Shown one piece after another: positions 4,227 to 44,303 of a stretch of DNA of 64,000 nucleotides. Origin of the DNA: Blepharisma japonicum. Lineage: Eukaryota > Ciliophora > Heterotrichea > Heterotrichida > Blepharismidae. Where the stretch lies: contig CATKHK010000051.1 of NCBI GenBank assembly GCA_949751835.1, positions 272,478 through 336,477 of the forward strand, given 5' to 3'. Position 1 is the first letter of the stretch. Each line of letters begins with the position of its first letter. The notes below the pieces were generated by a model, which saw nothing but the letters and a program-made list of their open reading frames with translations, searched no databases and was not told the DNA's origin. A program made the translations under genes and the position numbers.

Positions 4227-6236
4227 TTAATATTTGATATTTGTCGTCTTGCAAATTAAGCATTTCATTGAATTAATTTGCGACATCATAGCTTGAAAGT
4301 CTTGCAAACAAATTTTATTTTGTAAGACCCTACCGAAAATATCTGAAAAAGTATCAAATTCTCTCTCTGTAATCCCCAAATGCTGATGAGATGCTCTGAT
4401 TTTTCTTCTTAATTCTAAGCCAGCTTGCCCGTTGAATATACTAAATAGCCCATCCACGATCATAGTAAAATTTTCTAATTTTGTATCCTCAAAGCGATAG
4501 CCTATTATATCATTTTCTAGTATTTCATCATATAGAGAAGCTATAAATTCATGCCAGAAATTGTCTCCATATTTCGTAATTAAGCTTTCATTTTTTAAGC
4601 CTGATAATTTTGAATTGAACTTCATTGTGTCATAATTACTGATGATTTTATTGAAATGTTTTCTTGTTGGTGATTCATTTTTTCTATTTGATGCAGAATA
4701 CTCAAGACATTCTGATTTATTTAAATAGCTGCAAATGTTAGGACACTCAATCTTTCTTTGCTTAAAAATGGTGTCATAGGTTTTAATGCTTTGCTCTTTA
4801 AAGTTTGCTGCTCAATGTATATGTTGTAAATTATTAGCATCTATTTTACTATCCCTCGTGTGAGTTTCTTTTTCTATAGGCCCACTTCTTAAATGAACTG
4901 AGTTGCTTCTAACTCTAAAAGGCAATTTTTGAGAGCTGCATATTTTTTCATGGTGGTCACTAATATCGGAATCTTCGTTAGTAGTATTTTCTAAATTTTC
5001 TTCTATATTAAGTTCAGCAATTTGATGTTTTTTGCCATTTTTTAAATTTTCTAGAGAATATCTCCTCTTTGCCCATTCATTATTATTGACTTTTAAATCA
5101 ATTTTTTCTAACGTGGTCCATTCTTGAATATCTAAAAAAATTCAATTTTTATCTGCATTTTGCATAAAATCAACAACAAGCCCTTTAATTGGTTTCCCTT
5201 TAAATTCGGAATTGTTGAGAAATGAGAGCAGCTGGTTTGTCATTTTTTCTATTTCTGGAATATTAATTTTACTTTGGATTGCAAAACAACTATTCTCATT
5301 TTTAGTATGGACTGTAAAGGTTTCAAAGCTTTTTGGCTCATTTGAGCCTGAACAAAAATATTTTTGGTTTAAGTCATTTGGTATTGCTTCTTCTGAGTTG
5401 TTTAAAGATAATCTATTAGATTCATGATCTAATGGACATCTCAATAAAGCCGATTTATTGGGTGTTTTAATTATAGGAGACTTCTCTACTCTCTTGCTTG
5501 TATAAGGGTTGTTAATTGACTTCGAAGTCTTGAGCATTAGATTAGTATACCTAAATTCTGTCACTTGAGGCTTCGATTTTTTTGCTTTATATTTATATCT
5601 TTTTGTATTAATATTTGAAGGTTTTTCTTGGAATTTCAAGAGATTTATAATAGAAAAATACTTGAAATTTTCGTTTTGTTTTCAGACAACTCTTGTGACT
5701 GATGCTGGATTCGGAGGCTTAATAAATTGCTGAATCATTGCAGAGTGATTTGAAGAGTTCCAAAGTGTTTTTGCTTCAGCAATAGATGATAGAGAAATTG
5801 ATTGACTATCGTCTTTATAATAAAATAAAGGAGTATCGCTAGATTGCTCAAAATTATCAAAAAATTCATCGGCATGGCATTTCTTTGAGATAACTCTTTT
5901 ATCTATATTAGTTTTGATTAAATAAGGTCTTGGAGCGTTTTCGACCTTTATAAGCGTGATTGGTATGTTTAACTTGATATTATCGGTCTCTGAAATTCCG
6001 ATTAAATGAAACAGCGTTTTGATTTTTTTCTGTTCAGTCAATTTTGGCAGCAAAGAATTTAATTTTTTTATATAAGAATTGTGCCTAGGATCTGAATAAC
6101 TTGCATTTGAGTCGCAAATAATCTGATTCTTTGGAGTTGGAGAAATTAGTGAAGGCTTTAATAAGTTATTTTCCTTTATCGATGAAGAGGAATTTTGAAC
6201 ATAAATTCTTTTATTTTGCGTTTTTGGTAGTTCCAT
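4227..6236 (-). CDS. Globin-fusion protein, array copy 1
   Basis: 669 residues from ATG at 6236 to TAA at 4227-4229, continuous once three TGA codons are read as Trp (RVVW near 5680, DKNW near 5140, HIHW near 4817); the globin FW here uses TGG. The N-terminal domain lacks the usual leading 'IPxILxxLK' helix and starts MELPKTQNKR. It keeps NIPITLIKVE, MIQQFIKPPNPASVTRVVW, KSINNPYTSKR, ENSCFAIQSKINIPEIEKM and DKNWIFLDIQEW. The globin domain runs from about residue 555, with B10-type Tyr in SLYDEI, the long form of the E helix (LENFTMIVDG) and candidate proximal His617 in RASH. Helix G/H is slightly altered (LQNKICLQDF) and the protein ends KCLICKTTNIKY. It is the last copy of the array, 123 bp from copy 2. 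Confidence 0.88.
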
Positions 6237-6359
6237 TATTTTTTTATATAATCAAAATGTTTATATCATAAATTATCTTAATCAAAATTTTGTCAGATAT
6301 TATTATTTACAAATTTCTATTTATTAATTCATTTTCACAGAATTTCTATTAAACATCTG

Positions 6360-8369
6360 CTATTTCGAATGCGAATGATTACATACAAGCCATTTCATAG
6401 ACCGTATTTGAGATACCATAACTTGAATATCTTGGATCTCCATTGTGTTATCTATAAGACTCCTTTCAAAAATATCTGCAAAACAATCAAATTCTTTTTC
6501 AGAAATTCCCAATTTTTTGTGAGCTCCTCTTACCCTTCTTCTAAATTCTAAATTAACTTGTCCATTAAGAACCCTAAACAAGCCATCTATAATCATTGTA
6601 AAATTTTCCAATTTTGTATCTTTGAAGCGTTTATTTAATAAATCACTGCTGAGAATATTATGAAAAAGGCAAATTATAAATTCATTTCAGAAACTGTTTC
6701 CGTACTTTAGAATTAAGCTTTCATTTCTTAAATGAGATAGTTTTGAGTTAAACTTGATAGCATCAAATTGATTAATTATATTTGTATAGTGATTTCTAAT
6801 TGATGTTTCATTATGTGATGATGATAAATGTGGGTTTTTACAATGGTCAGCAAAATGGACTGAATTTATTTTTCTCGTCTTAAAAATCGTGCTATAGGAT
6901 TGAATGCTTTGCTCTTTAAGATTTACTAAAAGATGACTAGCACTTTGGCTTTGATTTTTGAGGTTGTTAACTTTCTGAGTTACTTTGCAGTATCTTTCTG
7001 CTATGTCTTTTTCATTGAAGTCATCTTTTTGAACAGAAACTGCTTTTTTTCTTATCCTAAAAGGAAGTTTATTTTTTTCACTGATAGTTTCTTCTTTTTC
7101 AAGCTGAGGGATCTCATTTATTTCTATATCAGGCTCATTTTCTGATTCCTCATATACACTATCTCTGGAATGATCTACAGAATGGCTTCTCTCTGAAAAT
7201 TTCATGGCCTTTCCTTTTTCTCTGCATTCAACTGCAGATTTATCAGTCGTAATTCATTCCTGTAAATCCAAGAAAATTCATTTTTTATCTACATTTTGTA
7301 CAAAATCAAGAACAACACCTTTAATAATCCTATCTTTGAATACAGAATTATTAAAAAAAGAAACAAGTTGATTCGCCATTGTGTCAATTTCTTGTATTTT
7401 AATTTTGCTTTGGACTGCAAAGCAGCTGTTTGTATTTTTAGTTTGGACAAAAAAGCTTTCAAATTCTTTTGGCTCAGCAAATTCATTAATTATATTTTCA
7501 TTTTCCTGATCTGCTAATTCCATAAATGACCTTGAAAGTAAAGATCTTGAAGCTTTAGCTGTAGAATTTCCAGAAAAATTGCAAAATGTTTGGGCTAAGT
7601 TCTTTGGTTTATTCGATTTTTTCTGAATTTGCATTTTATAAGGGTTGTTTATAGACTTAGATGTTTTTTGTATAAAATCAGTATATTTAAAGTTATATAA
7701 TTGGGAATATGACCTATTTCTTTTTATCTGTGATTGAGGCTTTATTGTAGAGTCTTCAGGTTTTTCATGAAATTTAAGAAGATTTATAATTAAAAAATAT
7801 TTTGTTTTGGCATTTTGTTTTCACAGAATTCTGGTAATAGACACTGGATTTGATGAAGGCTTAATAAATTGTTGGATCATTGCTGACTGGTTTGATGAAT
7901 TTCAGAGTGCTTTAGCTTTGGCTATTGAAAATAAGACTTCAGAATGATTTTGGGCTTTATAGTAAAACAAAGGGCCATCTTCTGCCGATTTAAACAAATT
8001 AAAAAATTCTTCATCAGCACATGGCTTTGAAATTATTTTTCCGTTTTTCTTTGTATGAATTAAAAATGATACTGGCATTTTATCTAGTCGCAACAGAGTA
8101 AGTGGAATATTTAGCCTTAAATTGTTGTCTGAGTCATAATTATTGATTAAATGAGAAAATACATTGAATTTTTGATGCTCTGGAAGTTTTGGTAGCAAAA
8201 AGTTAAGTTTTTTTATAAAAGAATTTTGCATAAGCTCTGTATGGAGTCCGCTTATAACAGTTGCTTTGTTTTTCAAAACTGATAAATTTCATGAAGACCT
8301 ACTTAATCGGTGATCTTTAGCAAATTCAGATAAATTTTGATGATTTTCGAAATATTCTTGTCTGTCCAT
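6360..8369 (-). CDS. Globin-fusion protein, array copy 2
   Basis: 669 residues from ATG at 8369. Six TGA codons are read as Trp: RSSW, ALW, RILW, KKW, QEW and the globin FW, each falling where a paralogue has Trp. It shares exact length and the PPN/PSSN-type 'QQFIKP' stretch with copy 1, so the two form a sister pair. Motifs seen are NIPLTLLRLD, KSINNPYKMQ, NSCFAVQSKIKIQEID, IKGVVLDFVQNVDKKW and LPFRIRKK. The globin domain begins LKYGNSFWNEF and has Phe rather than Tyr at the putative B10 site (CLFHNI), the long E helix (MENFTMIIDG) and His617 in RGAH. The tail reads MKWLVCNHSHSK, with Trp (TGG) replacing the first Cys of the usual CLIC. Gap to copy 3 is 139 bp. Confidence 0.88.
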
Positions 8370-8387
8370 TATTTACAAAAGAAGACA

Positions 8388-8508
8388 TAACAAATGTAAT
8401 TACTCATAAATATTTACAAATTAACAAGTTGGGAATTTCCAACTCCAATAGGCACTTTTAGAATATTATTTTAATAAATTTATGAATTAAAAATTTAATT
8501 CTTATACA
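8388..8508. other. Array spacer (copies 2-3)
   Basis: Short AT-rich spacer with no feature seen. It is typical of the tightest spacers of the array. Confidence 0.3.
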
Positions 8509-10530
8509 TTACCTGCATATCAAGCATTTCATCGATTTTATCTGCATCATTATTGCATGCTTGTCTTCTTCTTCAACCTGGAACTCTGCCAGTGTTTTTT
8601 CAAAAAGATCTGAATAAGCATTAAATTCGTTTTCATTTATTCCTCTATTTAAATGCGCCCCTCTTACTTTTCTTCTAAATTCCAAGCTTACATTTCCATT
8701 AAAAATTTTAAACATTCCTGTCACTATCATTTCAAAATTGTCTAAATTGCAGCTTTTGAAGTAAGAATAAAGCTGCTCACTGCCCAAAACTTTATTATAA
8801 AGTGACAGAATAAAATTATTTCAAAATTGGTCTCCTCCATATTTTTCAACTAAATTTTGCCTTTTAAGTTTGGCTATATGGGCATTTTGGGTCATTTCAT
8901 CAAAGTTTTCAATAATCCCAGAAAGATGCTTTTGAGTCATATGGTGGCACTTGTCGTCCCAAAGGGATTCAGAGATTTGGAGGCGTTTTTTGCCGACTGG
9001 AGTATTAGGAAGAGGGGTCATATCATTAAATTGTGTATAAGAGGAGCTACTGAGGTAGTTGTGAGGGCTTTCGGCTTGGATAAAAGTTGTGGATGATGCT
9101 CTTAGAAGTTTTTTACTTGAGATTATTTGGTCAACTTTTTGATTTACTTCAGCACATCTTTGAAGCAGCTCTTTTTCATCAGAAATATGTGGTTTTTCTT
9201 TAATGGTGATTGATGGTTTTAATTTGACAGAAAAGGTTTTTTGCCTTTTTATTATGTCTTTTGGTGCCTCTTCAGATTTAATTTCTTCATCTTCAAAATT
9301 TGATACTTTCTTATTGCATATAAGCGATCTGCTTCTCCGCGGCTTATTTATTCTTGGCATCATTATTTTTTTCTTCTCAATTTCATCGGCCAAATATTCT
9401 TTACAATCCAGCAAAAACCAATTATTGTTTCTATTTTGAAGAAAATCCAGCACAATTGCTTTTAGACTATGCTGAAATATTTCATTATTTAAAAACTGCA
9501 CAACTTGATTAACCATATTTTCTATTTCAGGAATTTTCACTAGGCTTTCTATTGCATAACAGCTTTCTGAGTCTTTAGTTGTTACTATAAATTCTTTATA
9601 TGCTCCTTCTCCAATTATTTTTGATAGTTCTTCAGTAAGGCTACACTGTTTAGCCTCCCTGGAAAATATTGAAGGAGAAGACGCTCGATTTAATCCTTGT
9701 TTAGGGAGCTCTGAAAATGAAGCATTTTTTGAGTTTTTATTTTTAATTGGAGTTTTAGCGACTTTGTAAGGATTGTTGACTGATTGGGATGAAGGGAGCA
9801 TCATATCTCTGTACCTGAATTCCGATACATTAGTTGAGGAAATTGATCTTTTATGCACAAGTTTTTGCTGTTTTGGGGAAATTTTTTTTAGTTTCTTTTC
9901 TTTTTTGGCTTTATTTACGATATTGAAATATTTATTTTTTAGACCAAGCCTTCATAAAACTCTTGTAAAAGAAATAGTGCTTGATCGCCCTTGGATATAT
10001 TGTTGCATAAATGCATTCGTTTCAGAAGGATTTCATATTTTCAATGCACTGTCAATTGTAAATACTGCGACTGTATCTTGGCCAGGACTTTTAAAACAGA
10101 ATAATGGGCATTCTGAATCGTTTTTTTCTTGTGTCAGATTAAAAAAGTCTTCGCTTGTGCAAGGCTTTGAGTGTATTTGGCCATCCTTTTTTGTATGAAT
10201 AATGCATGAGGCTTCTTCAAGCTTAATTAGAGTAGTTGGGACGCAGACGTTAATTTTGACTTTATTTGAAAATTTTGCGAATAAAGAAAATAAGTTGAGC
10301 CTTGGGCTGAATTCAGATTTTGGAACCAAGTTGTTTAGTTTAGATATATAGCAATTTTGACTGCTATCAGGGCATAGCTTGTTACCAAAGTTCGATCCTC
10401 TTATGCCAGTTTTTTTAGAAAAGTCATGAATAAAATTAATTATATCTTCCCTTATATGAGTAATCTCATCTCTCTCAATTGTGCTTTGATGATAGTCTTT
10501 AAGATGCTGAAGGATTATTGGTACTTCCAT
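8509..10530 (-). CDS. Globin-fusion protein, array copy 3
   Basis: 673 residues from ATG at 10530 (MEVPIILQHLKDYHQS, the canonical leading helix). Three TGA codons give LKIW, RVLW and QFW. The N-terminal domain shows CVPTTLIKLE and SECPLFCFK; SVNNPYKV and the 'DSCYAIES-like' ESCYAIESLVKIPEIENM follow, then FLQNRNNNWFLLDCKEYL. The 'FKEQSIKAY' motif is absent, replaced by unrelated sequence around SSTTFIQAES. The globin domain starts LVEKYGGDQFW near residue 567, has Tyr in SLYNKV, the long E helix (LDNFEMIVTG), His626 in RGAH and an unusual N-R-G after it, and ends exactly at MKCLICR. Both neighbours are on the same strand; 266 bp separates it from copy 4. Confidence 0.88.
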
Positions 10531-10796
10531 TATTTATTACTGACTTTTTGATCAATAAATCATAAGCCTTATCACTTTTAATTTTAAGCAAATTCATATA
10601 AAAACTTATTATACATTTCTATCCTACGCTTCACTGCATATTCCTTAGATACATGATCAACCAATCCACATATTTATTGGTTCAGTTTTATTTTTTTGTA
10701 GTCTTAAAATAAGATTATTTTTCTAATCAGAAATAATCTTAATTACAGAATTTTTATATTTTGATTAATTAAATAGAATTTCTCAGTTTTAAAAAG

Positions 10797-12773
10797 TTAT
10801 TTGCATATTAAGCACTTCATGGATCTGATTTGCGACATAATCATTTGCCGATCGTCCTCTTCGATATGGAACTCTTTTAGAGTGCTTTCAAAAATGTCAG
10901 AATAAGCATCAAATTCTTTTTCACAAATTTTTAAATACTGATGGGCAGATCTTACGGCTCTCCTAAATTCTAGCGTCGCATTTCCATTGAAAACTTTAAG
11001 CATTCCTCTAATAATCATATTTAAATTTGAAGTGCTGAAATACTTACACAATAATTCGCTTTCTATTACTTTTTTGTATAATGACATAATAAATTGATTC
11101 CAAAATTCGTCTCCTCCATAGTGGTGTATTAAATCTTTTCTTTTAACTTTGATTAATTCACATTGGACCTTCATCTCGTCTAAATTATTATTTGTCTCTA
11201 ATAGATGCCTTTGAGCATGGTCATTTACTTTATAAGATAATAAAGCATTTTTAGTATTTTCTAGATTAGGTTTTTGTTTAAAAATTGGACAGGATATTAA
11301 AAATTCGTCATTACGGTTCATATCTTTTTGATAAGTGTAGGTATTCTGATTGAATCTCATTTGGTAGGCTTTAATGCTTTCTTCTTTGAAATTTACAAAA
11401 TTTAGATGCCTGCCTGGCTTCAGACTGGTTAAATAGTCAATTTTTTGGCTCAGCTTATTACATCTTTCAAATAAATCTTTTTCGGTGCTGGCTATTATTC
11501 CTCGATTTACGTAAGGATTTTGTTTCATTCTGAAAGGTAAAGTTGCTGCAGTGGGAGTTTTGCATCTTATTGACTCTAAAGGTATTAAATCTTGGATACC
11601 TTCTGATAGTGATCTTTTATTGTGTGGAGGAGAGATAATTTTTGGCTCTGATTCGCTATTGCAATTATCTGTTAGGGGACTATCTTGGGTTGAATATTCT
11701 TTGCAATCTAAAAATACTCATTTTCCATCCTTATTGTAAATAAAATCTGCAATCAAGCTTTTTAATTTTTCATCTTTACAAAAATGGATATTTAGGAAAG
11801 CTACAATTTGATCAACCATATCGTCAATTTCTCGAATTTCTGACTTATTTTCAGTTACCAAATATTCTTCCTGTGATGTGGTATTCACAATATAATTTAA
11901 AGCCATTTTACAAGGAGTTAATGATTTAGATCTATTTTCAGCTATATTTTCACTTGGTCATTTATTTTCTTTCAGAAAAACACTTGATGACCGTATATCT
12001 TTATTCCTTGCTTTTTGCTCTGTATAAACATGGGCTGCAATATTTTGAGATTTTATAGTTTTAAGTGTTATATGAGAATATCTGAATTTAGGAAAATAAT
12101 GATTTTTGTCAATATTATGTTTAGAAGCTTGAGAAATCTTTTTCTTATTTTCAGCCACTTTTGTGTTTTGTGTTAATTTACTCGTTATACAAAAATATTT
12201 ATTTTCTTTTCCTTTTCTTCAAAGAACTCTAGTTATAGATGGTTCAATAGAATAGCCATTTACAAATTTTTGTAATAGAATTGGCTCATTTCTTGATTTT
12301 CCTCAAACTTTTTCTGCAGCTTCAATTGAATAAAATAATTGGATATCCTTATTTGGTGACTTAATACAATAAATAGGATTTTTTTCTTGAGTATTATTTT
12401 GGTTAATTGAAAAAAAATCCTTTTGATAACAATTTCTAGTATAAATACGCCCATTTTTCTTTGTTCATATAATATAGTTAGCCTCGCTTTTGTCGTCTTT
12501 TATCATACTGGTAGGAATGTTTATATAAAACTTCCCTAAGTTTGAGTATAGCATAAATAAGCTAAAAATATCAAGGCTGCTTTCTTTAGACCGTGCTGGC
12601 AGTAAATTATTGATTGCTGGAGAAGAAAGATTATTGAAGGATTTGAAAGAGCTGAGAGAAGATTTAAATTGATTAGGATATGAAGGATTTTGAAAACTGG
12701 AGGAAATTTTGTTTGGGCTTTCTGGTTTTACAGTCTTTTTTGAGGTGTTAGGAGATGATAATATAAGATCCAT
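10797..12773 (-). CDS. Globin-fusion protein, array copy 4
   Basis: 658 residues from ATG at 12773 (MDLILSSPNTSKK; no leading helix). Five TGA codons give NYIIW, KVW, RVLW, NKWP and DGKW, joining five separate open segments into one frame. NIPTSMIKDD replaces the usual PTTLIR, and the S-I-N-N-P motif has diverged to KSQNIAAHVY; NFKEESIKAYQ is kept. The middle domain reads VFLDCKEYS after the TGA Trp. The globin domain starts HHYGGDEFWNQF, has Tyr in SLYKKV, the short E helix (SNLNMIIRG, three residues missing relative to copies 1-3) and His611 in RSAH, and ends MKCLICK. The 496-bp spacer to copy 5 is featureless. It is the first copy from the left with the short helix form. Confidence 0.86.
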
Positions 12774-13269: not shown

Positions 13270-15354
13270 TTATCTTGAAATAAGCCCTTTCATAGATTTT
13301 AATTGAACTATAATTAGATCTCTATCTTCTTCAGACACATTAAAATCGTTCATATTGCTAATAAAAATTTCAGCAAAAAGGTTAAACTCGCTTTCCGCAA
13401 TTTTAAGTTTTAAATTCAAATGGACTGCCCTAATCTTCCTTCTGAACTCAAGATTTACATTTCCAGAAAAAAATCTAAACATTCCTTTAATAATTTTTTC
13501 AAAATTCTCCAAAATCGTAGCTTTAAAATATTTATTAAGAATTTCATTTGCTAGAACTTTTTGATATAAAGATAATAAAAATTGGTTCCAAAAATCTATT
13601 CCCCCATATTTTTCAACCAAATTTTCTTGTCTGTATTTTGATACTTTTGCACATGTAACCATTTCGTCAAAGTTGTTAACTATATTTACGAAATGTTTTC
13701 TAACATGGGAAAAGCTGGGCTCTTTCCAAAGGATATTATTTCTTGTTTCTTGATTAGGATTTTTATTTGCTCTTAAAAGAGAAGAAAACTGAAAGCCACT
13801 AATAGCTTTATTACTAATGGTGCTACTCTCTTTTCGGTTTAATTTTTTGATGCGTATTGCTTGGCTAGCTTTAACAGCTTCTGAGAATTTTTTAACTGAT
13901 TTTAATTCTTGAAACTCTTCGGTTATATTAATTTTAAATAAGGATTTATCAGTTTTCTTTTTTAAGGACGAGCTTCTTTTGGTGTTTATTATTTGGGTAT
14001 CATTGATATTTGAATTAGATTCACTCTCCCTGATAAAACTCTCTCCGACTGGTGTCTGCAGTGCACTAAAAGATTGCGATTTTTCTATTCTTAGCATTTG
14101 CTTCTTAACTTTTACTGGGTCTGGGTACAAATATGGACTTATTTCAATTGAATGCTCTCTATAATCCAATATTATCCAATCCTTTTTAAAATCTTGCATA
14201 AAATCAATCACGATTCCTTTAAGTTGATTTTGATTATTAAAAATAAAAGTATTTAAAAAAATTACGATTTGATTCATAATTTTTTCAATTTCTGGGATGG
14301 TTCTGTAGCTCTCAGTTGCAAAGCAACTCTCAAGATTTTTGGTGATTACAAAATAATGCTTAGACTCCTCCTCTTTAAAAACTTTGGACAGTACACTTGT
14401 TTGTGCCAATATTTCATTGTTGAAAATATCTATATCAGTTTCTTCATAGGATTTCATTGTTTTCAAATCGTTCTTTTGTGGGAGACAAGTTAAAGAATGA
14501 GATCTATTATTTCTGATTTTTGAAATATCCATTGGCTTAGTGCCAATGGATGGAAGCTGGCTGGATATTTGATTTATCTTGTGATATGGAACGTCGAGGG
14601 TATCAGATTTATTTTTTATATCTGAAAATTCTTGCCAGCTACAATAGCTCCTTTGCTCTTTGAATTCATATTCAGAAGAATCTAATTGTAATAAATCTGG
14701 AAAATTTTTTGATGGATTTCGATTTTTTATGTGGTACTTATTTTTATTATTAATAATAAAATACTTGCTTTTCATATTTTTTCTCCACAATATTCTCACA
14801 ATTGTGGCAGGATTTGATTGGTTTTTTACAAAGTATTGTATAAAAGAGCCACATTCAGCTTTTTCTCAGGCTGAAATTGCAGCCTCTTGAGAAAATAAAG
14901 CTTTGATGCATTGATTCTTTTGCTTTAAGCAGAACACAGGGAAATTTTCATTACTCCCTTCAAGAATGCCAAAAAACTCTTGATTATCAGATTTCTTTGA
15001 ACACACAAATCCATAATCATCTGTATAAATTAAATATGGTTTCATATCTAAGTCATTTATTTTTAGGAGAGTTGTTGGAATATTAATTTTGAATTTTAAA
15101 TCATCAGCGTGAGTTGCGAGTAGACAATAAAAATCCAGTTTATCTTGCGTTTTAGGAAAGAAGTGATTTATCCTGTTGATGTATTCATTATGAACTAGTT
15201 CAGGGATTTTTGACTTCGATTTAATTCCACGCAGAAGCCCTTTTTGAAAGGAGTCGAGTATAAAATTGTCGAGGTCTTCTTGATATTTGGATATTTCTTT
15301 CAAAAAATGCTCGTTTTTTAGCTCTTTAAGAATTGCTGGAATTTCCATCTTCAT
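13270..15354 (-). CDS. Globin-fusion protein, array copy 5 (divergent member)
   Basis: 694 residues from ATG at 15354 (MKMEIPAILKELKNEH). Only one TGA codon, in ISAW near 14864; RILW and the globin DFW use TGG. NIPTTLLKIN and ATIVRILW are kept, but S-I-N-N-P and FKEQSIKAY are absent. The middle domain is clear (ESCFATESYRTIPEIEKI, then LKGIVIDFMQDFKKDW). The globin domain starts VEKYGGIDFWNQF, with Tyr in SLYQKV and the long E helix (LENFEKIIKG). His645 lies in RAVH, followed by a slightly longer loop (LNLKLKIAESEF) than other copies. The C-terminal CLIC is lost: the protein ends MKGLISR. These differences mark it as the most divergent intact copy. Confidence 0.87.
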
Positions 15355-15892: not shown

Positions 15893-17953
15893 CTAATTTA
15901 ATTTACATACCAAGCACATCATAGATCGAATTTGTGACATAATGCACACTTTATCATCTTCTTCAATTTTGAATTCGCTAAACGTTTCTTCAAATTTATC
16001 TAGAAAAAGATAAAAAGCTTCCTTAGATATTCCAATGCTTTGATGAGCGTTTCTAATCGATCTCCTAAATTCAATATTTGAATTTCCGCTAAAAATTTGG
16101 TGAAATCCTGAATAAATCATTTTTTGGCAAGAATTTTTGAAATATTCACTTAATTTCTTGTTTGAAATAAACTTCCTATAGAGTGAAATAACAAATTTAT
16201 CTCAAAAATTATCCCCACCATATTTTGAGATAAAGTTTTTATTGAGAGAAATATTTTTTGAATTTATTTTCATCTCATCATAAATTTCTGCGATATCTGA
16301 ATAGCACTTTTTGGCATAAATATGGCTTTCGTCGTTTCATAATGGCTTATTTTTGTGCTTTAATAAATCTTGATTATCATGACTTTGTAAGAAAGGACAA
16401 TTTTTATGGGACTTCTCTTCTTTTATGTCAGCCTTTATTAAGCAAGGATTTGTGTCATTTTTTAGACATTTTGTGTCTATATTTCAATCTTTATGCAGAA
16501 TAAAATCATTGTAAGTATGAATGCTTTGCTCTTTAATATCATTATTTGATAAAGAAGGCAGATGATTTTTTTCAATTATTTTATCAATTTTGTTAGATAA
16601 AAGTGTACATCTTTTAAATAACTCTTTTTCTGAAGACTTTGGTGCTTCAGCTATTGCAGAGACTTTAACCATTTTAGTAGATTCCTTAAATTTTCTTATC
16701 TCTAAACCTTTTATTGAGAAATTTTCACGAATTTGACGATAATTACAGTTAGTTGTAGATTTATCATCCAGTAAGCTAAGATTTATCTCAGGAGAGCTCT
16801 TAACCCTCACGTGGAAACATTTTGGATTTTTATCCAATATAGTATTGCTTTTCTTTATGGTTGAGCACTCTTTGCAATCAAGAATATATCATTTATTTTC
16901 TTTTCCTTGTATAAAGTCAAGAACAATTCCAGAAACTTCTTCGTTAATAAATACACAATGATTTAAAAAAATTACTAGCCGAGTAACCATTTCTTCAATT
17001 TCTGGAACTTTCATTTTGGATTCAAAAGAAAAGTAATCATCAGATTTTTCTGTATTTAAAATTAATTTCTGATAATTTTCTGCATCATCTTCTAAAGCAC
17101 CTAACGAATAACTTTTATTTGCAAACTTGACTTTATTGCATTTTTTTATTTTGCTTTCATTTAGTGATGAGTCCAAAATAAGAGATTTCCTCTTTTCTCT
17201 TATTTTAAAAGGGTTATTAATAGACTGTGACGATTTTTGTAATAAATCTGTATATTTAAACGTCGATAACTCATTAAACGATGAATTTCTTCGTTGGTAT
17301 TTGATATTTTTTGAATTTATTTTTGAGTTGATTTTTTGGTGATTATCGATTTTATTTCTTTTGATGATCATAAAGTACTTAATATTTTTTCCTTGGATTC
17401 AAAGAGCTCGAGTAATGGAAATTTGGTTAGTTTTACAATGAATAAATTCTTGAATTATATCATAATCGTCTTTAATTGATTGAGCATCTTCTGAGCCATG
17501 CAATGATATGGTGCCTTTATGTGAATTTTTATAGCAAAACAGAGGGGTTTCTTTATCAAATTTATGCCGAAAAAAATCTTGTTCACAGCTTTCTTTGATG
17601 CAAACTTTTCCCGAAGAATTTGTTTGTATTAAATATGGATTCAAACAGTCTTTAACCTTTAAAAGTGTAACTGGGATATTGAGAACAAGACTAGTATTTT
17701 TAAAATTCTTAAAAATTGACTCAAAAATGTTCAATTTTCAGCTATTTGAGTATTTTGGCAATAAAGAATTTATCTTCTCAGCTGACTTTTCAGCATGCTG
17801 GCTTTTGCTAATGGAATTTTTGGAATTGAAGATAGTTAATCCATGGCTATACATAAGCCTTAAATAATTTACTTTAAGTTCACTGTTATCAATTTCACCT
17901 ATAACATTCTGATGAGAGGTTTTAAGATGCTCAATGAACGCTGTGCTTTCCAT
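15893..17953 (-). CDS. Globin-fusion protein, array copy 6
   Basis: 686 residues with the start set at ATG 17953 (MESTAFIEHLKTSHQN), which aligns with the leading helix of copies 3 and 8; the frame is also open for ten codons upstream (Met at 17983). Six TGA codons give NSW, RALW, NKW, KDW, PLW and the globin NFW. Motifs are NIPVTLLKVK, TPLFCYK, QSINNPFKI, KVPEIEEMVTRL, SGIVLDFIQGKENKW and DIKEQSIHTYN. The globin domain starts SKYGGDNFWDKF, has Tyr in SLYRKF, an irregular short E helix (NSCQKMIYSG) and His637 in RNAH, and ends MMCLVCKLN. The region before the globin is rich in K and N. Spacer to copy 7 is 265 bp. Confidence 0.86.
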
Positions 17954-33306: not shown

Positions 33307-33382
33307 TATAAAATTTACCAGTGCTTATTTTTGTATTTTAAATAAATATTTATAATAAATACACTTAATATATTCAATAAAC

Positions 33383-35437
33383 TTAAGAAGTTCCTTGCTT
33401 GCATATTAAAGTTTTTAATGACTTGATTTGCGCCATCATGATACCTTTATCATGCTCATTTACTTGAAATTCTAGTAGTGTATTTTCATAAATATCGCTG
33501 AAATTATAAAATTCTTTTTCAGAAAGCCCTAAAGATTGATGAGCAGCTCTTACTCTTCTTCTAAACTTAAGACTAATTGTCCCGTTAAATAAACTAAACA
33601 TCCCAGACACAATCATTGTAAAATTTTCAAGTTTTGCGCCTTTAAAATACTTGTTAAGAAGTTCATTTTCAAGAATTTTATTATATAGTGACAATATGAA
33701 TTGGTCCCAAAATGGCTTTCCGCCATATTTTTCTACTAAATTTTCGTTTTTTACTTTTGTCGCCTGTGAGTTTAAGTTCATTTCATCTAAATTGTCAATA
33801 ACAGCATTAATATGATTTTTTGCATAATTGTCAACTATGACAGAAAACGATGGATTTTTTAATTTTGCGGAATTATCAAGTGTAGACTTATTGATAAGAG
33901 GGTTTTTGCTTCTTGATAAATTGAATGGACATGACATAGGGCTGGATCCTGCTACATAGAATGGGCACTTTTTGGTTTCATTTGAGATTGGATTCAGGTT
34001 AATTTCAGTTTCTTTATTGACGATTTTATCTGGCTTTTCGTTTAATTTAGAGTATTTTTCAAAAAAATCATTTTCAGGAATTTCAGCTAAAGGTATAAGT
34101 TTATTTGATTTATTTCTGTATTTTCCTGCCAAAGAGCTTTTGGATTCTATAACTTTTCTGCTTGATTCTAGCTCTGGAACTTCGTTAATTGACTCTTCTG
34201 TTTTAATATTGCTTAGATCGACTGACATTGTTCTTTGCTTTCTAAAGCATTTATTTTTAGGTTCATTTGTCTTGAGGGGTTCAAATCTGCTTAAATTTGT
34301 ATTTAAACCATTTGAAAATTCTTTACATTTTAGTAAAAACCATTTTTTGTCTCTGTTTTGTATAAAATCAAGGACGATTCCCTTGATATTATCCTCTTTA
34401 AAAAGATATCTATTCAAAAATTCAATAATTTGGGTCGTCATTGCATTGATTTCAGGAAACTGTCCTTTGGTTTCAACAACGAAGCAATTTTCAACTTTTT
34501 TGGAGTTGACCAAGAAATCATTGCTGTTATCTTTATTTAATTGCCCAAATAAAGTATTTTTTGTCTCTTTTGGAGGATTAATACTGGCATAAAATTCTTC
34601 AGGAGTACTATGAGAAAATGACTGCGATCTTTTTCTTTGTTTTGGCATTGAGACTGGCTCTTTTTCACTTTTTAATGGAAAAGGATTGTTTATAGATTGA
34701 GAGGTCTTTTTCAGCAATGTTCTGTAGTCAAAAGTAGAAAATCTCCTCTTTTGAGTGTATCCAGGATCAACAGCTATTGGCTTAGCTTCACTTTTCACTA
34801 CTCGTTTGATTTTTTTATGATTAATAATAGAGAAATATTTTGTTTTAGCTCCATCTACCCACAAGACTCTTAAAATTGATGGAGGATTTGACAAACTCTG
34901 TATACAATGCTGCATTTTTGCAGGCTCTTTTGAAGAATTTCAAACAGTTTTTGCAGAATCGTTTGTATAAATAAGATCTCCTTCTTTATTCACGGCTTTA
35001 TAGACATAGATAGGGGTGTTTTCGCCATTTTCAAGAAATCTTTCAATTTCTATATTAAAATACTCTTCCTCATTGCAAGGTCTGGCAATTACTTTTCCAT
35101 TTTTTATAGTCTGGACTAAAAATGAAACAGGCAAATTTCCATTTCTGATAATGGTAGTAGGAATATTAACATTAAGACTACCTGTATCTGAATACTTTAT
35201 AAAAGTATCGAAAATATCCAATTTTCTTTGATTAGAATTATTTGACAGTAAACTATTGAATTTCTTGGTGTTATTTATTTTTAAGTACTCAGAATTGCTT
35301 CTGAGACCTTTAAAATGGGTATTTGACGATTCCTTTATCAAAGAAATAATATCTTCTCTGGTATTTTTAATTTCTTCATGTTCAAAAGCTTTTTGATGAA
35401 GAAAATTCAATTTCTCAAGCTTGGCTGGTAAGTCCAT
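33383..35437 (-). CDS. Globin-fusion protein, array copy 13
   Basis: 684 residues from ATG at 35437 (MDLPAKLEKLNFLHQK). One TGA codon (KTVW near 34938). Domain positions serve as a guide for the family: N-terminal domain to about residue 205 with NIPTTIIRNG, RVLW at 190-193 and KYFSIIN at 199-205; QSINNPF at about 247-253; middle domain about 307-374 (ENCFVVETK, then IKGIVLDFIQNRDKKW); globin 570-684. The globin begins EKYGGKPFWDQF with Tyr in SLYNKI, the long E helix (LENFTMIVSG) and His633 in RAAH. The tail is LKTLICKQGTS, with Thr in place of the first Cys. FKEQSIKAY is missing; instead CPF repeats occur (KKCPF, MSCPFNLSR). Very close to copy 14. Confidence 0.9.
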
Positions 35438-36902: not shown

Positions 36903-38939
36903 CTAAGGAGTTGCTTGCTTACATATTAAAGTTTTCAATGACTTGATTTGTGCCATCATAATGCTTTTATCAAGATCCTTTATTTGAAATTCTATCAGTG
37001 TATTTTCATAAATATCGCTGAAACGATTAAACTCTATTTCGGAAAGCTCCAAGGGTTGATGAGCAGCTCTTATTCTTCTTCTGAACTTAGGATCAATTAT
37101 GCCGTTAAATAAATAAAACATCCCAGAAACAATCATTGTGAAATTTTCAAGCTTTGCACATTTAAAATATTTGATGAGAGAATTATTTTCGAGAATTTTA
37201 TTGCAAAGTGAAAAAATGAATTTGTCCCAGAATGGCTTACCACCGTATTTTTCTACTAAATTTTCATTTTTGACTTTTATCGCCTTTGTGTTTAGATTCA
37301 TTTCGTCTAAATTATCAGCAACGGCATTCATATGATTTTTTACATAAGTATCAACTATGGTAGAAAACATAGGAATTTTTGCTTTTGTAGCATTACCATT
37401 TTCAGTTGTAGGCTTATTTATAAGGGGATTTTTTCTTCTCGATAAATTAAATAAGCATGACACAGGGCTGCCGTCTGCTGTATAAAATGGGCACTTTTGA
37501 GCTTCTATAGGAATTGAATTCAGATTCCTTTCACCTCCTTTATTTGAAATTTTATCTAGTCTTTCGCTTAATTTAGCGCATTTATCTTTTTCAGGTATTT
37601 CAGCTAAAGGTATAAATCTGGGGTTGGATTTATTTCTATATAACTCAACTAAAGAGTTTTTATCTATTGTAACTCTTTTGCTCAAATCTTGTTCTTGAGT
37701 TTCAGCAATAGATTCTTCTCCTTTTGAATTATCCAGGCTGCGATATGCACATCTATGTCTCCTAAAACATGTGTTTCTTGTTTCAGCCATCTTAATAGGT
37801 TGACATCTTCTTAAATTTGTATTCAAACTATTTGTAAATTCTTGGCACTCGAGTAAAAATCATTTTTTATCTCTGCTTTGTATAAAATCAAGGACGATTC
37901 CTTTCACATTATCTTCTTTAAAAGGATATTTATTTAAAAATTCAATGACTTGGAGAGTCATTGCGTTGATTTCAGGAAATTGCCCTTTGGTTTCAACAAC
38001 AAAACATTTATCAGGGTTTTTTGAGTTTACAAAAAAATCATGATTGCTGTCTTTATTTAATTGAGTAAATAAATTATTATTTGTCTCTTTGGGGGGATTA
38101 ATACTAGCATAAAATTCTTCAGGTGTACTATAAGAAAATGACTTTGATCTCCCTTTTGGCATTAAGACTAGCTCTTTTTCGCTTTTTAATGGAAAAGGAT
38201 TGTTTATAGATTGAGAGGATTTATTGAGCAGTGTCCTATAATCAAAAGCAGAGAATCTTCTCTTTTGAGTATTACCAGAATCCACAATTACAGGTTTTGG
38301 CTCAGTTTTCACTTTTCGTTTGAGTTTTTTATGATTAATAATAGAAAAATATTTTGTTTTGGTTCCATCTAGCCACAAAACCCTTACAATTGATGCAGGA
38401 TTTGAAAAACTCAGAATACAATGCTGCATTTTTGCAGGCTCTTTTGAAGAATTTCAAACATTTTTTGCGGACTCTTTTGAGTATATAGGATCTCCTTCTT
38501 TATTTAAAGTTTTATAAACATAGAGCGGGGCATTTTCTTCATATTCAGTTTCTATATTAAAATATTCCTCCTCGTTGCACGGCCTAGTAGTTACTTTTCC
38601 AGTTTTGGTAGTCTTGACTAAAAATGTAACAGGTCCATTTCTGACAATTGTAGTAGGAATATTAATATCAAAGCTATCCACCTCTGAATATTTTACAAAA
38701 GTATCGAAAATATCTAATTTTCGCTGGTTTGAATTGCTTGATAGCAAACTATTGAACTTCTTAGCATACTTTCTTTTCAGAAAGTTAGAATTGCCTACTA
38801 AACCATTAATAAGAGCCTTTTTTGAAGATTCATTAATCAAGGAAACAATATCATCTCTCGTGTTTTTAATTTCTTCTTGCTCGAAGGTTTTTTGGCGAAT
38901 AAAATTCAATTTTGTAAGTTTAGCTGGTAAGTCGGTCAT
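36903..38939 (-). CDS. Globin-fusion protein, array copy 14
   Basis: 678 residues from ATG at 38939 (MTDLPAKLTKLNFIRQ). Two TGA codons, KNVW near 38452 and DKKW near 37858. It is the closest relative of copy 13: NIPTTIVRNG, MQHCILSFSNPASIVRVLW, QSINNPFPL, PEEFYASINPPKE, KGQFPEINAM and VKGIVLDFIQSRDKKW all match with few changes, and the linker has the same CPF motifs. The globin domain starts EKYGGKPFWDKF but has Cys instead of Tyr at the putative B10 position (SLCNKI), the long E helix (LENFTMIVSG), His627 in RAAH followed by QPLE rather than QSLG, and the tail LKTLICKQATP. The B10 change could alter ligand binding if the haem assignment holds. Confidence 0.9.
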
Positions 38940-39512: not shown

Positions 39513-41540
39513 TTATATTCCTCTTGTTACTAAACATTTTAGAGATTTGACTTGGGACATCATAAGCTGCCTATCTACATCTTCAATCTGAAATTCATAC
39601 AAAGTGCTTTCAAAAGTGTCAGAGTAGCTTTCAAATTCACGATCAGTAATTCCCAAATTATGGTGTGATGACCTTATATTCCTTCTAAACTCCAGATTTA
39701 CCATTCCATTAAAAATTGCAAACATCCCATGCATAATCATCCCAAAAGTCTCTAATTTTGTTTTCTTAAAATACTTCGTCAATCCATCATTTGCCAGAAT
39801 TTTATTATAAAGTGACAAAATAAACTGATTTCAGAATTGCTCTCCGCCGTATTTTTCGCTTAAATTTTTATTTACCTGGGACAATTTTGTGTTAAATTTG
39901 GCTTCATCAAGGCTGTCTGCCACATTTTTTAAGTGTTTTCGGATACATTGATGATTTTTGTCACTATTTAAAGAATCTTTAATAAATGATGCATTTTCGA
40001 TTTTTAAGGTATTATTAAGTGGGCATTCATAGAGATCTGACGGAGGAATTGGAGACAGAAATGGTCTGAAATTGTACCGCATTTTGTAAGCTTGAATACT
40101 TTGCTCTTTAAAATCAAGCGCACATAGGCTTGTAGAATGCGTGTGGTTCACAATTCTGTCAATTCTTTCATTTACTTTGTGAATTCTATCGATAATATCT
40201 TTTTCTTGGATTTCTGGCTTGTAGTAATCTTTTGATCTTGATCTGATTCTAAAAGGCAAATCATAAGCTTTTTCTTTTTCATCAGATTCGGTAAAGCTTG
40301 TCTCTGATAATCTATTGGACGAGCCGATCCTATTTTTGGAATTTTGGGGCAAATCACAGGATTTTTGCCTTCTGGATGATAATGGGGAAGATTTTCTGTC
40401 AGCGATTTTATTAAATTCTAAGCCCAATTTATTAGAGAATGCATATTCTTTGCAATCAATTAACACCCAGTTTTTATCTTTATCTTGGATAAAATCAAGC
40501 ACTATTCCTTTTATTCCGTCCTCTTTAAATACTTTGGTATTTAAAAAAGCGATTATTTCTGAGACCATTTTTTCGAGTTCTGGGAATTTTCCTTTTGTTT
40601 CTGCTCCTATACAACTTTCAGTTTTTTTTGTATTTACTATAAACTCATTTGATAAAAAACTGTCAGAGAAACTTTGAAGATTTTCTTTTGTTAATAGAGG
40701 AATATCTTTATTTTGTATTTCATCCTTTTCTCCATGAATGTCATTAATATCGGCCAGATCAGTAGTGCTTGAATAATTTGGTGGCTTATTAGCAATTATT
40801 GATTTTGATAATTTTATAAATGTATTGTTGGAGCAGCGAAAATCTGAAGTTGGACGGTAAATTTTTCTCGTCAGTTTTTTAGGAGTAGAATCTGTTGATT
40901 CTGCTTTAATTCTTGCTTGAAAAGAACGGTTTAAAATTGTAAAAAATTTGAGGTTGCAGCCGATTTTTCATAAAACTCGAGTTATAGAAGCTGGATTTGT
41001 GAAGCTTTGCACATAATATTGCATCATTGCAGGCTTTCTGGCTGATTTTCATATTGTTTGAGCACTTTCAATTGATTTCAATGCTATGATTTCTTTATTC
41101 TCTACTTTATAGCAGAAAATTGGGCTAAAATCATCAATTTTCTTCACATTGATCTTAAAGAATTCATTGTCTATGCAGGGTCGAGAAATAATAGCTCCAT
41201 TTTTTAAAGTTTTCATCAAAAATGGAACTGATATATTTTCTACCCTCAGTATTGTCGTTGGAATATTTACAAAAACTCTTATTGAGTCTAGGTGTTTAGC
41301 AAATAAGCTAAAAAGATCTAGTTTTTGGCGTTTTGCTGTTTTTGGAAGCAAATTATTAAGCTTTTGAAGAAAAAGATCTTGCACGTATTCTTCTTTATTC
41401 TTGGTTTTATCAAAAATCCCTTGATGCACTGAGTCGTCTATGAGTGTATTGGAGTCTTGTTTGAAATTTTGAATTTCATCTCTTTCACTGACTCTGTGAT
41501 GATAATCCTTAAGGTCTTGTAGTATAACTGGGATGTCCAT
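39513..41540 (-). CDS. Globin-fusion protein, array copy 15
   Basis: 675 residues from ATG at 41540 (MDIPVILQDLKDYHHR). Three TGA codons give QTIW near 41046, RVLW near 40970 and the globin QFW near 39829. NIPTTILRVE, PFLMKTLKNGAIISRPC and SPIFCYK mark the N-terminal domain. S-I-N-N-P has diverged to KSIIANKPPNY. The middle domain has ESCIGAETKGKFPELEKM and IKGIVLDFIQDKDKNW; LPFRIRSRS and DFKEQSIQAYK follow. The globin domain starts EKYGGEQFWNQF, with Tyr in SLYNKI, the long E helix (LETFGMIMHG) and His626 in RSSH followed by a second His. The tail is LKCLVTRGI, so the second Cys of CLIC is lost. Confidence 0.88.
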
Positions 41541-42150
41541 GATATATTTCTAACAAAATTCTTTTTTTTAAGAATTACATAATTTTCGTAATAATTTATT
41601 GTTTACATAAGGGATTAACTGTTATCGGTAAATAATGAAGGCATTTGCAACAAAAACGTATTCTAGAAATAAAAAGAAGTCTATAAAAATGTGAATTTTT
41701 TGCTTTCAACAATATTTTTGCTAAATCATTAATTTAAAAACATTTTTTATCTGAATACCTTATACTGGAAAATAAAGATTGCAACCTATTTTTATTAATA
41801 TTTAAAACTCTTTTTAATATCATTCTCAACAATTAGAGAAAGCTAAAGCAGCGAATATATTTAATTCAAAGGTATTTTAATTTAATTTCTTAACTTTTCT
41901 CATATGAGACCTTCTCGTCAGAAATAAAATACTTTATAATTTTTAAAATTTCAATAATTAAAATCAATAATAACTTGTTTTCCTAAAAACTCATGATAAA
42001 GGTTATATATCTTAAATATATTTCTTAAATAAATTTATTTTAATAATTATATCTCTGCTTTCCAGTAGTTTTAAAGAATTATTTTTAAATGAAAATTCAC
42101 TTTAAAGCATCACATTTATTATTTGAGACTGCTTATTATAAATCACTTAT
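41541..42150. other. Array spacer (copies 15-16)
   Basis: 610 bp of AT-rich sequence with short homopolymer runs; nothing supportable seen. Confidence 0.4.
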
Positions 42151-44303
42151 TTACTGTCTTACTATTAAGCACTTCATGGATTTAATTTGGGACATGATAA
42201 CAGCTTTATCATCCTCCTCAATCAAAAACTCTTCCAAAGTTTTTTCAAAAATATCTGAGTACGAATCAAATTCCTGCTCATTTACCGTATAATTTGCATG
42301 AACCGCCCTAACTCTTCTTCGAAACTGCATATTAATATCAGAGTTAAATACTTTATACATGCTTGTGACTATCATTTCAAAGTTTTCTAATTGTGTGCAT
42401 TTGAAATGTTTATTTAGCATTTTATCTGCTAAAATTTGTCCATATAATGATAAAATAAAATGCTGCCAAAAATCTTCGCCTCCGTATTTTCCAACTAAAT
42501 CTTGTTCTTTTATTTTAGAAATTTTTATTTTTTTGGAAAGGGAGTCAAAACTGTCAACTGTGGCTGTAAGATGTCGTCGACTGCATCTATAGACTTCATT
42601 ATCAAATGCAGGCTTGTTCATGATTAATGATGGATTTTGTGCTTGCTCTGGAGAGCTTGGAGATTGATGTGCTGGGCTAGTTAATGAATTTTTTATAATA
42701 TTTAGAGGCATTGTACCTGATTTTAAAAGATTTTTATAAGCTTCAATACTTTGCTCTTTGAAATCAAATAGAGGCAGTATTTTGGATGGCCTATAATCTG
42801 AAAGTTTTGTCGCTTTTTCAACAATTTTGTTGTATCTTTCTATAATTGAGCTTTCATTTGGGCTGGAATCTTCAATAGGTTTGGATTTTGACCTAATATG
42901 GAATTTTGGTATTAAAATTGATGATTTTTAAGCTATTCTTCTTTGTAAAGCATTTTTACTACTAGTCTGAAAGAGATAATGCGACATATATAATCTATTA
43001 CATTTTCATTCTCATTTTCATCTATAATTACACTTTGAGCTGTTAGTAGTCGGTCTTCAACATTTGTTTCCATTATTGTTTCTGGCTGAAGAGTCATTTT
43101 TTTTGGGGAGTCTCTTTTTGAGTACAAAGGACATGCTGAATGTGCTCTTTCTATTTTATCAGGAGAAAAATATTGCTGAGAATCATTTAAAAGCAGCTCT
43201 TTGACATCTAAAAAAATCCAATTTTTCTGCTTATCCTGTATAAAATCCATAACGATTCCTTTAATAGTGTTTTCTTTGAAAATATATGAGCTTAAAAAGT
43301 TTTTTACTTGTTTAAGCATTCCGTCTACTTCTTCAATTGGTCCACGCTTTTCCATGACCCAACATTTTCCAATCATTTTGGTAGAAATTATATGCTGCTC
43401 ATTATTATCTGGAGAAGGTGAGCTATCAGCAAGTCTTTTTGTATCAAAAGAGTCATTTTTTCGCAAAAATTCTTGAGATCTTTTTTTCGGGATTTTTTTG
43501 TCATCAAAGCTTAAATTAAGCTTAAAAGGGTTATTTATGGAAAAAGAAGTTTTGAGTAGATAATTTGTGAATCGAAATTCTGGGGGACGAGAAGAAGATT
43601 TGGTACGCTTTGGCTGCTTTTTGATAGGAATCAATTTATTTACTTTGCTCAAGTGAGAATCATTTCTGCTTACAATACTGAAATATTTTATTTTTTGGGA
43701 AGATTTTCATAGTACTCTTAAAATAGAAATAGGCTTAGAGCTGCATCGAATAAAGCGCTGGATTCTTCTGGGGCGATTTCGTGAGGCGATCCAATTATCT
43801 TCTGCTTTGTGAATGGAATTTAAAACGATTGACCGATTTGGGTGAGATTTGAAACAAAAAAGGGGAGAGTCATCAGAGTGTTCTCGGTATAGTGAAAAAA
43901 ATTTTTGTTCTGCGCAGGGAATTCCCGAAATTTTCCCATGCTTGTCAGTTCAAAGCTTGTAGCTTGTAGGTAAATCTTCTCCAGCTATCAATGTATCTGG
44001 GATTCTAAGAGATATGCAATTTTCATGCCAATGCCTAGCAAGTTCCAAATATATATCAATCTGTCTAGGCTTTCCTCCACTTTTACCAAGTAAGCAATTG
44101 AGTTTTTCAATGAAAACATCATGATTTTTTTGGGATTCAAGACCTTTCCTAAACCTTAGCCTTAATCCTTTATTTGGAGACTCATCAATAAGTTTCAGCA
44201 GATGTGCGCGATGTATTTTATCATCTTCATTTGCATCATTATGATGAAAAGTCTGCTTAGAGCTTACTCTGATTTGGTTTAATATATGGGGAACATTAAT
44301 CAT
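42151..44303 (-). CDS. Globin-fusion protein, array copy 16, reading frame broken
   Basis: First copy of the array. The N-terminal and middle domains run in one frame from ATG at 44303 (MINVPHILNQIRVSS) to a TAG at 42933: RIPDTLIAGE, two TGA-coded Trp (YKLW, RVLW), FSINNPFKL, IKGIVMDFIQDKQKNW, IFLDVKELL. The 'ILIPKFHIRSKSK' (LPFRIR equivalent), DFKEQSIEAYK and globin domain lie in another frame after it, ending at 42151. The two frames differ by 2 nt modulo 3. No 15- or 16-nt GT..AG intron bridges them, since a TAA in the second frame sits just before ILIPKF. The globin itself looks intact: GKYGGEDFWQHF, Tyr in SLYGQI, long E helix (LENFEMIVTS), His in RAVH, tail MKCLIVRQ. A recent frameshift or a sequence error explains it. 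Confidence 0.75.

Follow-up and report, generated by a model that had tools for sequence, protein, structure and literature searches.

Results

Gene content of the array

The window is a stretch of 64,000 nucleotides of Blepharisma japonicum DNA, and between positions 4227 and 41540 it carries 15 intact genes in tandem on the minus strand (Table 1). Each is an ATG-to-stop frame of 645-697 amino acids when TGA is read as tryptophan, and each ends at a TAA or TAG stop of its own; under the standard code 1-6 TGA codons interrupt every one of the 15 frames. One domain order runs through all intact copies (mean column identity 41% in the 15-sequence alignment): an ATP-grasp-like domain, a long linker that is disordered and in part helical, and a C-terminal truncated globin. 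The original prediction of conserved domain order and separate stops was therefore borne out in the 15 intact copies, with TGA as tryptophan. It had counted 16 copies, and the sixteenth proved to be disrupted, with both halves present. In copy 16 the frame of the N-terminal part ends at the stop 42935-42933, the globin part follows in another frame whose last stop lies at 42930, and the His of the globin part is retained. An intron of 14-20 nt was considered at this place and rejected, as none of four GT-AG candidates (42900-43150) joins the two frames.

Table 1. Positions in the window of the array genes and of the domains of copy 15, with partners on C34 (reciprocal best unless noted) and in B. 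stoltei.
Feature	Position (strand)	Length (aa) or residues	C34 partner	B. stoltei pair	Remarks
Copy 1	4227..6236 (-)	669	no reciprocal best	P0004	
Copy 2	6360..8369 (-)	669	no reciprocal best		
Copy 3	8509..10530 (-)	673	C34:242619		colinear
Copy 4	10797..12773 (-)	658	C34:240368		
Copy 5	13270..15354 (-)	694	C34:237600		
Copy 6	15893..17953 (-)	686	C34:234641	P0015	
Copy 7	18219..20219 (-)	666	C34:232162		
Copy 8	20653..22746 (-)	697	C34:229643		
Copy 9	23089..25143 (-)	684	C34:227444		
Copy 10	25593..27554 (-)	653	C34:225105		
Copy 11	27960..29897 (-)	645	C34:220396		second predicted structure
Copy 12	30300..32261 (-)	653	C34:112050 (dispersed); second, array neighbour C34:217779	P0013	
Copy 13	33383..35437 (-)	684	C34:215151	P0001 (nearest)	87% identical to P0001
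Copy 14	36903..38939 (-)	678	no reciprocal best	P0002	72% identical to copy 13
Copy 15	39513..41540 (-)	675	C34:212830	P0006	first predicted structure
Copy 15, ATP-grasp-like domain, first part	40926..41342 (-)	67-205			pLDDT blocks mostly 84-95, one 68
Copy 15, ATP-grasp-like domain, second part	40440..40643 (-)	300-367			past the disordered insert; pLDDT blocks 83-96
Copy 15, globin	39519..39869 (-)	558-674			pLDDT blocks 61-93, most >80
Copy 16 (disrupted)	42151..44303 (-)				N-part frame 42933-44303; globin part 42151 to about 42927, other frame

The C-terminal domain

Profile comparison by hhalign matched the C-terminus of the family to eight single-domain globins of the same genome with a probability of 99.4 over 112 columns. 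The globin profile score of 121.8 exceeds the maximum of 58.1 reached in 40 block-shuffles, and the match is thus not due to chance. A Tetrahymena group-1 globin was matched at E 0.0023 and, by phmmer, at E 0.002. In both predicted structures (copies 11 and 15) the fold agrees with that of truncated globins of solved structure, and Foldseek gave a probability of 1.00 for the predicted globin domain against THB1/THB4; the structural Z value alone is indecisive for helical domains. The profile and structure check proposed for this domain thus found a globin at both levels, and since the profile and the two predicted structures agree on a truncated globin, the original assignment stands.

The general Pfam globin model matched weakly: PF01152 picked up 5 of the array's 15 intact members at E<=1, the strongest at E 0.0045, and its curated cut-off was reached by none. 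Together with the indecisive Z value, this is what could be said for a helical domain mistaken for a globin. Against such a mistake stand the hhalign result with its shuffle control, the phmmer match to Tetrahymena, the Foldseek match, and a relative elsewhere in the family (L032) that passes the PF01152 cut-off when matched as a domain in six-frame translation (24.6 bits; its whole protein, at 19.1 bits, falls below). We regard a non-globin as extremely improbable; the C-terminal domain is almost certainly a truncated (2-on-2) globin. Two other relatives differ in this domain. L040 has a C-terminus in which hhalign detects no globin; in L039, the tree position of which is unsure, hhalign detects one at 95.2 against the family and 97.3 against the single-domain globins.

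Pocket residues were tabulated for 56 family sequences, namely 41 of the 53 or so gene places in this genome and 15 B. stoltei proteins; eleven other places and the broken copy 16 lie outside the tables. The proximal His F8 is present in all 56, CD1 is Phe in 55 and Tyr in one, and Tyr B10 occurs in 50. All 56 have Arg or Lys where Tetrahymena has K67. An aromatic residue 13 positions after F8 is likewise present in 56/56, compared with 5 of the 8 single-domain globins from this genome. Position E7 is Phe in 37 sequences, Leu in 10, Gln in 4, Met in 4 and Val in one, gap placement affecting this assignment in the subset of the family that lacks three residues before helix E. Position E11 is Val or Ile in 40/56. 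In the eight single-domain globins, E7 aligns with Val, Thr or Ile, and E11 is Gln or Asn in 7. The domain had been called group-I-like: Tyr B10 and the Tetrahymena group-1 match agree with this, but the mostly nonpolar E7/E11 of the family depart from the polar pair that accompanies Tyr B10 in Tetrahymena.

These residues make it likely that the family globin binds haem. A globin that had lost haem, and that gave a docking protein just a helical module for protein-protein contacts, would suit the mostly nonpolar E7/E11, the deletion that a subset of the family shows ahead of helix E and the weak general Pfam match. It sits poorly with the invariance of His F8, of an aromatic CD1 and of the basic residue at the K67 position, and with the globin being the most conserved of the three parts compared (mean pairwise identity 51%, versus 34% for the N-terminal part and 23% for the linker). 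We consider a haem-less structural family improbable.

The N-terminal part

Two unrecognised domains had been described ahead of the globin. The models of copies 11 and 15 instead give one ATP-grasp/TTL-like domain, split by a disordered insert of about 90 residues, and two separate N-terminal domains were rejected on that ground. Going by the models, this part very probably has an ATP-grasp fold that has degenerated and that resembles tubulin tyrosine ligase (TTL). By sequence the hhalign comparison with TTL gave P 0.044, above all 40 shuffles, yet a probability of only 1.2, which is a weak match, and Pfam TTL matched none of the 15 array members. The motifs E-x-N and KF[DS]xR, which we take to be catalytic in TTL, have nearly vanished: E-x-N is found in 4/56 family sequences and K[FW][DS]xR in 1/56, versus 12/12 for both among the TTLs of the same genome. 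A plain TTL reading was rejected on the near absence of the ligase motifs and the weak profile.

Could the N-terminal part still be an active ATP-grasp ligase, or a nucleotide-binding switch gated by the globin? The fold is retained at high confidence in both models, and K145 (53/56), Q174, R188 and D/E349 (56/56 each) are conserved, as such an activity would ask. The loss of both motifs, set against their presence in every TTL of the same genome, speaks against it, and we hold it to be quite improbable.

Ranked above TTL in both models, the best structural matches were doublet-microtubule chains of Leishmania and Trypanosoma (9e78 and 9y6s chain 5K, 9e5c chain 7c), at 10-17% identity. These chains are probably the outer-dynein-arm docking subunit DC4 (dDC4), a subunit that binds the DC1/DC2 coiled coil on doublets; the name is drawn from PMC7617938.

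Pfam matches outside the globin (PAS_3, iron permease, CHU_C, SIN1) were weak and scattered, each in 1-2 of the 15 members, and were set aside. SIN1 matched one array member at E 0.0003, and the further weak Pfam matches were all under the cut-off. An NCBIfam scan returned five families, each matched in a single array member.

Family size, duplication and selection

Merging the hit lists by hand placed the family at about 53 places in this genome, and the array holds under a third of them. A second array, on C34, is colinear with the one described here and shares 11 reciprocal-best pairs with it, which indicates duplication en bloc. Three of the 15 intact copies (1, 2 and 14) lack a reciprocal-best partner on C34, and the partner of copy 12 lies outside the array. 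Protein searches listed 5, 2 and 13 matches out of at least 8000, 236 and 2052 candidates scored. Outside this genome the matches listed come only from B. stoltei, with at least 15 different family proteins among them; other heterotrichs may carry the family too.

In the 51-row tree, which leaves aside five C34 genes, 12 of the 15 B. stoltei proteins examined form a supported (starred) one-to-one pair with one gene here; P0001 falls closest to copy 13, at an open fork, and among these rows no single partner emerges for P0011 or P0014. Duplication of the array as a whole thus predates the separation from B. stoltei. Because the remaining 14 intact copies share 28-72% identity with copy 13, and because the 12 B. 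stoltei proteins sit in supported single-copy pairs, the copies have not been homogenised. The dN/dS ratio was 0.06-0.28 in 11 of 16 pairs (dS often >1.7 in these 11); in the remaining 5 pairs synonymous sites are saturated. Wherever it could be measured, selection is purifying.

Discussion

Proposed explanation

The computations show how the genes are built, the two folds, the residues of the haem pocket, the loss of the ligase motifs, purifying selection wherever measurable, the colinear arrays and the B. stoltei pairs. We propose that all of the approximately 53 gene places could go back to a single event in which a truncated globin was joined to the C-terminal side of a degenerate ATP-grasp domain. 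The ATP-grasp part, its ligase signatures lost, would serve to dock the protein on microtubule structures of the axoneme or the cortex, and the docked globin would bind haem and report or buffer O2, NO or redox state for the machinery to which it is attached. Common chemistry would come from the globin, and a copy-specific address from the N-terminal part with the linker. Copy-specific roles are indicated by a large family with old, individually conserved copies. Association of the family with microtubules or cilia seems to us only slightly short of an even call, and regulation by gas or redox state at these structures is possible, on balance doubtful. Overall, we tentatively favour the reading that the proteins are adaptors that carry haem and dock on cilia or on microtubules of the cortex. 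The fullest form of this reading, in which a docking pseudo-ligase became a haem protein kept in some fifty position-specific versions that read O2, NO or redox on cilia or cortical microtubules, as address-coded docking subunits and no soluble sensor pool, is distinctly unlikely. The excerpts of Tetrahymena dynein and doublet papers that were covered contain no ATP-grasp or globin docking subunit.

The proteins might instead be soluble haem enzymes (NO dioxygenases, nitrite reductases or peroxidases), with the dead ATP-grasp domain as an oligomerisation or substrate-binding scaffold and the many copies meeting a need for dosage when O2 is low or NO causes stress. In the sections of PMC4106858 covered, truncated globins figure mostly in the chemistry of O2 and NO, and in those of PMC7082302 the terminal extensions of Chlamydomonas THB11 alter oligomer state and nitrite reduction. 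High globin gene numbers also occur in part of Paramecium, P. bursaria having 2 and other species 21-46 (PMC6474222, in extract), and Tyr B10 is present in most of our sequences. Dosage, however, predicts similar copies, which the divergence from copy 13 contradicts, as do the single-copy B. stoltei pairs with their lack of homogenisation; in addition, other residues mostly stand where Tetrahymena has the Gln E7/E11 of its O2-stabilising network. We judge soluble enzymes unlikely.

If true, docked haem adaptors would join truncated haemoglobins, the role of which in ciliates is unsettled, with axonemal ATP-grasp pseudoenzymes, two subjects usually studied apart. The family would be a concrete molecular candidate for a link through which oxygen or NO could affect how a ciliate swims or contracts. 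It is also an example of an entire tandem array duplicated en bloc and afterwards retained largely gene by gene.

Comparison with known systems

In the parts of the Blepharisma genome papers covered, the sole globin mentioned is a 'bacteria-like globin' with constitutive expression (PMC9942806), which could not be assigned to a particular gene. Searches of open PMC papers turned up no record of a fusion of a globin with a TTL-like domain. The original prediction held that a large tandem family of fusions would be new. Truncated-globin fusions are known as a kind, with kinase, nitrate reductase and monooxygenase partners (PMC7082302, with Hade 2017 among its references). Those multidomain truncated haemoglobins likewise join a truncated globin to other domains; the partner domain differs in the Blepharisma family, which, with its tandem arrays, occurs only in Blepharisma among the matches listed.

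Truncated haemoglobins of ciliates had also been taken to be mostly single-domain. Ciliates already have a multidomain globin in androglobin (about 180 kDa), a protein shared with animals that is placed in Tetrahymena motile cilia in the portion of PMC8175508 covered and carrying a permuted globin and a calpain-like domain in that of PMC13331133. Identity with androglobin was rejected: helix order in our family is normal (96 ungapped columns), and the 15 members have no calpain Pfam match at E<=1. Globin-coupled sensors and flavohaemoglobins, in which an N-terminal 3-on-3 globin precedes an output or FAD domain, were likewise set aside; the family globin is C-terminal and truncated, and no FAD or known output family common to the 15 members was matched by Pfam at E<=1.

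With group-I truncated haemoglobins (Tetrahymena trHb 3aq5, Chlamydomonas THB1/THB4 and the single-domain globins of the same genome) the family shares the fold, a GG motif near the start, Tyr B10, Phe CD1 and His F8, and it aligns with 3aq5 over 96 ungapped columns. It differs in that its globin is the C-terminal domain of a protein of 645-697 amino acids, and in that the O2-stabilising Gln E7/Gln E11 of Tetrahymena have become mostly nonpolar. With TTL, RimK and synapsin it shares the ATP-grasp fold in both models; the disordered insert, the globin fusion and the near loss of the ligase motifs set it apart from TTL. The closest structure in both models remains the trypanosomatid doublet-microtubule ATP-grasp-like chain, related by fold only. 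The word globin has 0 occurrences in the dDC4 paper (PMC7617938), which describes, in the sections covered, few paralogues that occupy different places along the axoneme.

Results

The window forms the end of contig C51, in a genome of 45.2 Mb on 224 contigs, and no telomere repeat was seen by eye in its last 160 bases (63841-64000). Read with the standard code, the minus strand of the array gave fragments only; with TGA read as tryptophan, positions 4227 to 41540 hold 15 frames of 645-697 codons, all of which open with ATG and close with their own TAA or TAG stop. The halves of copy 16 are broken apart, the first-half frame stopping at 42935 and the second-half frame having its last stop at 42930, and none of four candidate short introns rejoined them.

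Features of the window and of related loci (C, contig; L, fetched locus)
Feature	Position	Strand	Remark
CAF1 ribonuclease domain	456-1331	+	Pfam
Copy 16	42151-44303	-	both halves present, in separate frames
F-BAR-like protein	45216-46370	-	slightly below Pfam cut-off
Flanking gene	46692-47162	+	relative beside C34 array, 69% DNA identity over 485 columns
Ammonium transporter	52434-53606	+	PF00909
ENTH-domain protein	58887-60536	-	Pfam
VWA-domain protein	61784-63589	+	Pfam
L039	C87:56500-61500, 2084-3766		divergent relative, same N-terminal domain, recognisable globin at end
L040	C64:207500-211500, 1609-3441		divergent relative, same N-terminal domain, helix-like end
L001-L004	C44:210224-215412		three single-domain truncated globins in tandem

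Hand-merged hit lists of two own-genome searches gave 53 family places, 16 on C51, 16 on C34 and 21 elsewhere; apart from copy 16, one further place is partial. Decayed copies with similar remnants, each interrupted by several TAA/TAG stops, lie on C97, C170 and C222 (L041, L042, L043), and family fragments occur elsewhere, for example on C13 and C49; the matched part of the C49 fragment (L045) has no TAA/TAG stop. Globin domains from a sample of 20 members group in a single clade (97/97 support), which fits a single origin of the fusion. No globin was detectable in the C-terminal region of L040, and L039 and L040 possibly represent a branch that predates the fusion or is losing the globin.

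The C34 array holds 14 genes in the same order as on C51. Eleven array-to-array reciprocal-best pairs were found (identity 45-67%); the reciprocal best of copy 12 is a dispersed gene, C34:112050, its array neighbour ranking second, and copies 1, 2 and 14 have no such partner on C34. The duplicated block extends past the array, since a relative of the flanking gene adjoins the C34 array too. Among the matches listed, the nearest named proteins come from Blepharisma stoltei, with at least 15 family proteins, and the closest tree rows are 77-95% identical (four compared in detail). In the tree, twelve of these 15 pair one-to-one, with full support, with a B. japonicum gene; the proteins paired with C51 copies lie on one B. 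stoltei contig (1,138,721 bases), the proteins paired with C34 copies on another (510,329 bases). Colinear arrays, supported pairs and the two-contig split together argue that the whole array was duplicated en bloc ahead of the species split, the copies retaining their identity. Computable dS values came from 11 of 16 pairs, several of those near saturation, and gave dN/dS ratios of 0.06-0.28. Two further small clusters, C21:108904-113176 and C36:33341-39979, are related to each other, carry genes on both strands and are apparently another duplicated block.

Haem-pocket residues were counted in 56 family sequences (15 from the array, 26 others of the same genome and 15 from B. stoltei), with helix positions named after the Tetrahymena numbering. 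His F8 is present in all 56, as is Tyr or Phe 13 residues further on; at CD1, 55 have Phe and one has Tyr, and at B10, 50 have Tyr, four Phe and two Cys. The Tetrahymena globin has Gln at both E7 and E11, whereas the fusion family is mostly nonpolar there (E7: Phe 37, Leu 10, Gln 4, Met 4, Val 1; E11: Val or Ile in 40). Three residues ahead of helix E are missing in a subset. From these residues the fusion globin is predicted as likely to bind haem, with a mostly nonpolar distal side. The E7 change is not specific to the fusion, since Val, Thr or Ile aligns at E7 in the eight single-domain globins of the same genome as well; unlike the family, seven of them carry Gln or Asn at E11, and five have Phe 13 residues past F8. 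Five of the eight lie outside the C44 cluster. The KYGGDPFW start of the array globins recurs in two single-domain globins (C20, C56), and in one on C6 the proximal His is replaced by Phe.

In the N-terminal ATP-grasp/TTL-like domain, Q174, R188, W191, F350 and W358 are invariant (56/56), and position 349 is always acidic (51 D, 5 E). The E-x-N past the conserved Trp occurs in four of 56 members versus 12 of 12 tubulin tyrosine ligases (TTLs) fetched from the same genome, and K[FW][DS]xR in one of 56 versus KF[DS]xR in all 12. Profile comparison with these TTLs was weak (probability 1.2, P = 0.044) and higher than in 40 of 40 shuffles. Judged by its motifs, the domain looks catalytically dead.

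Discussion

Mean pairwise identities among 43 sequences (globin 51%, N-terminal domain 34%, linker 23%) suggest that the globin would supply a chemistry common to all copies, with copy-specific addressing in the remainder. The dead ligase fold may dock on axonemal or cortical microtubules, as suggested by its closest kin, which sit on doublet microtubules, and the globin would offer a haem site for O2, NO or redox. Haem uptake, localisation and sensing are all putative. Androglobin in Tetrahymena cilia is a precedent there for a multidomain globin (PMC8175508).

Fusions of truncated globins to kinase or nitrate reductase domains have already been described (PMC7082302), and Paramecium species, P. 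bursaria excepted, have 21-46 globin genes (PMC6474222). Of the 15 B. stoltei members among the matches listed, three bear a UniRef name with globin or globin profile, so automatic annotation had picked up the domain in a few. Searches of open PMC papers gave no report of a globin and ATP-grasp/TTL-like fusion. The Blepharisma fusion is a multidomain truncated globin of new form, and its putative microtubule link is unexpected and testable.
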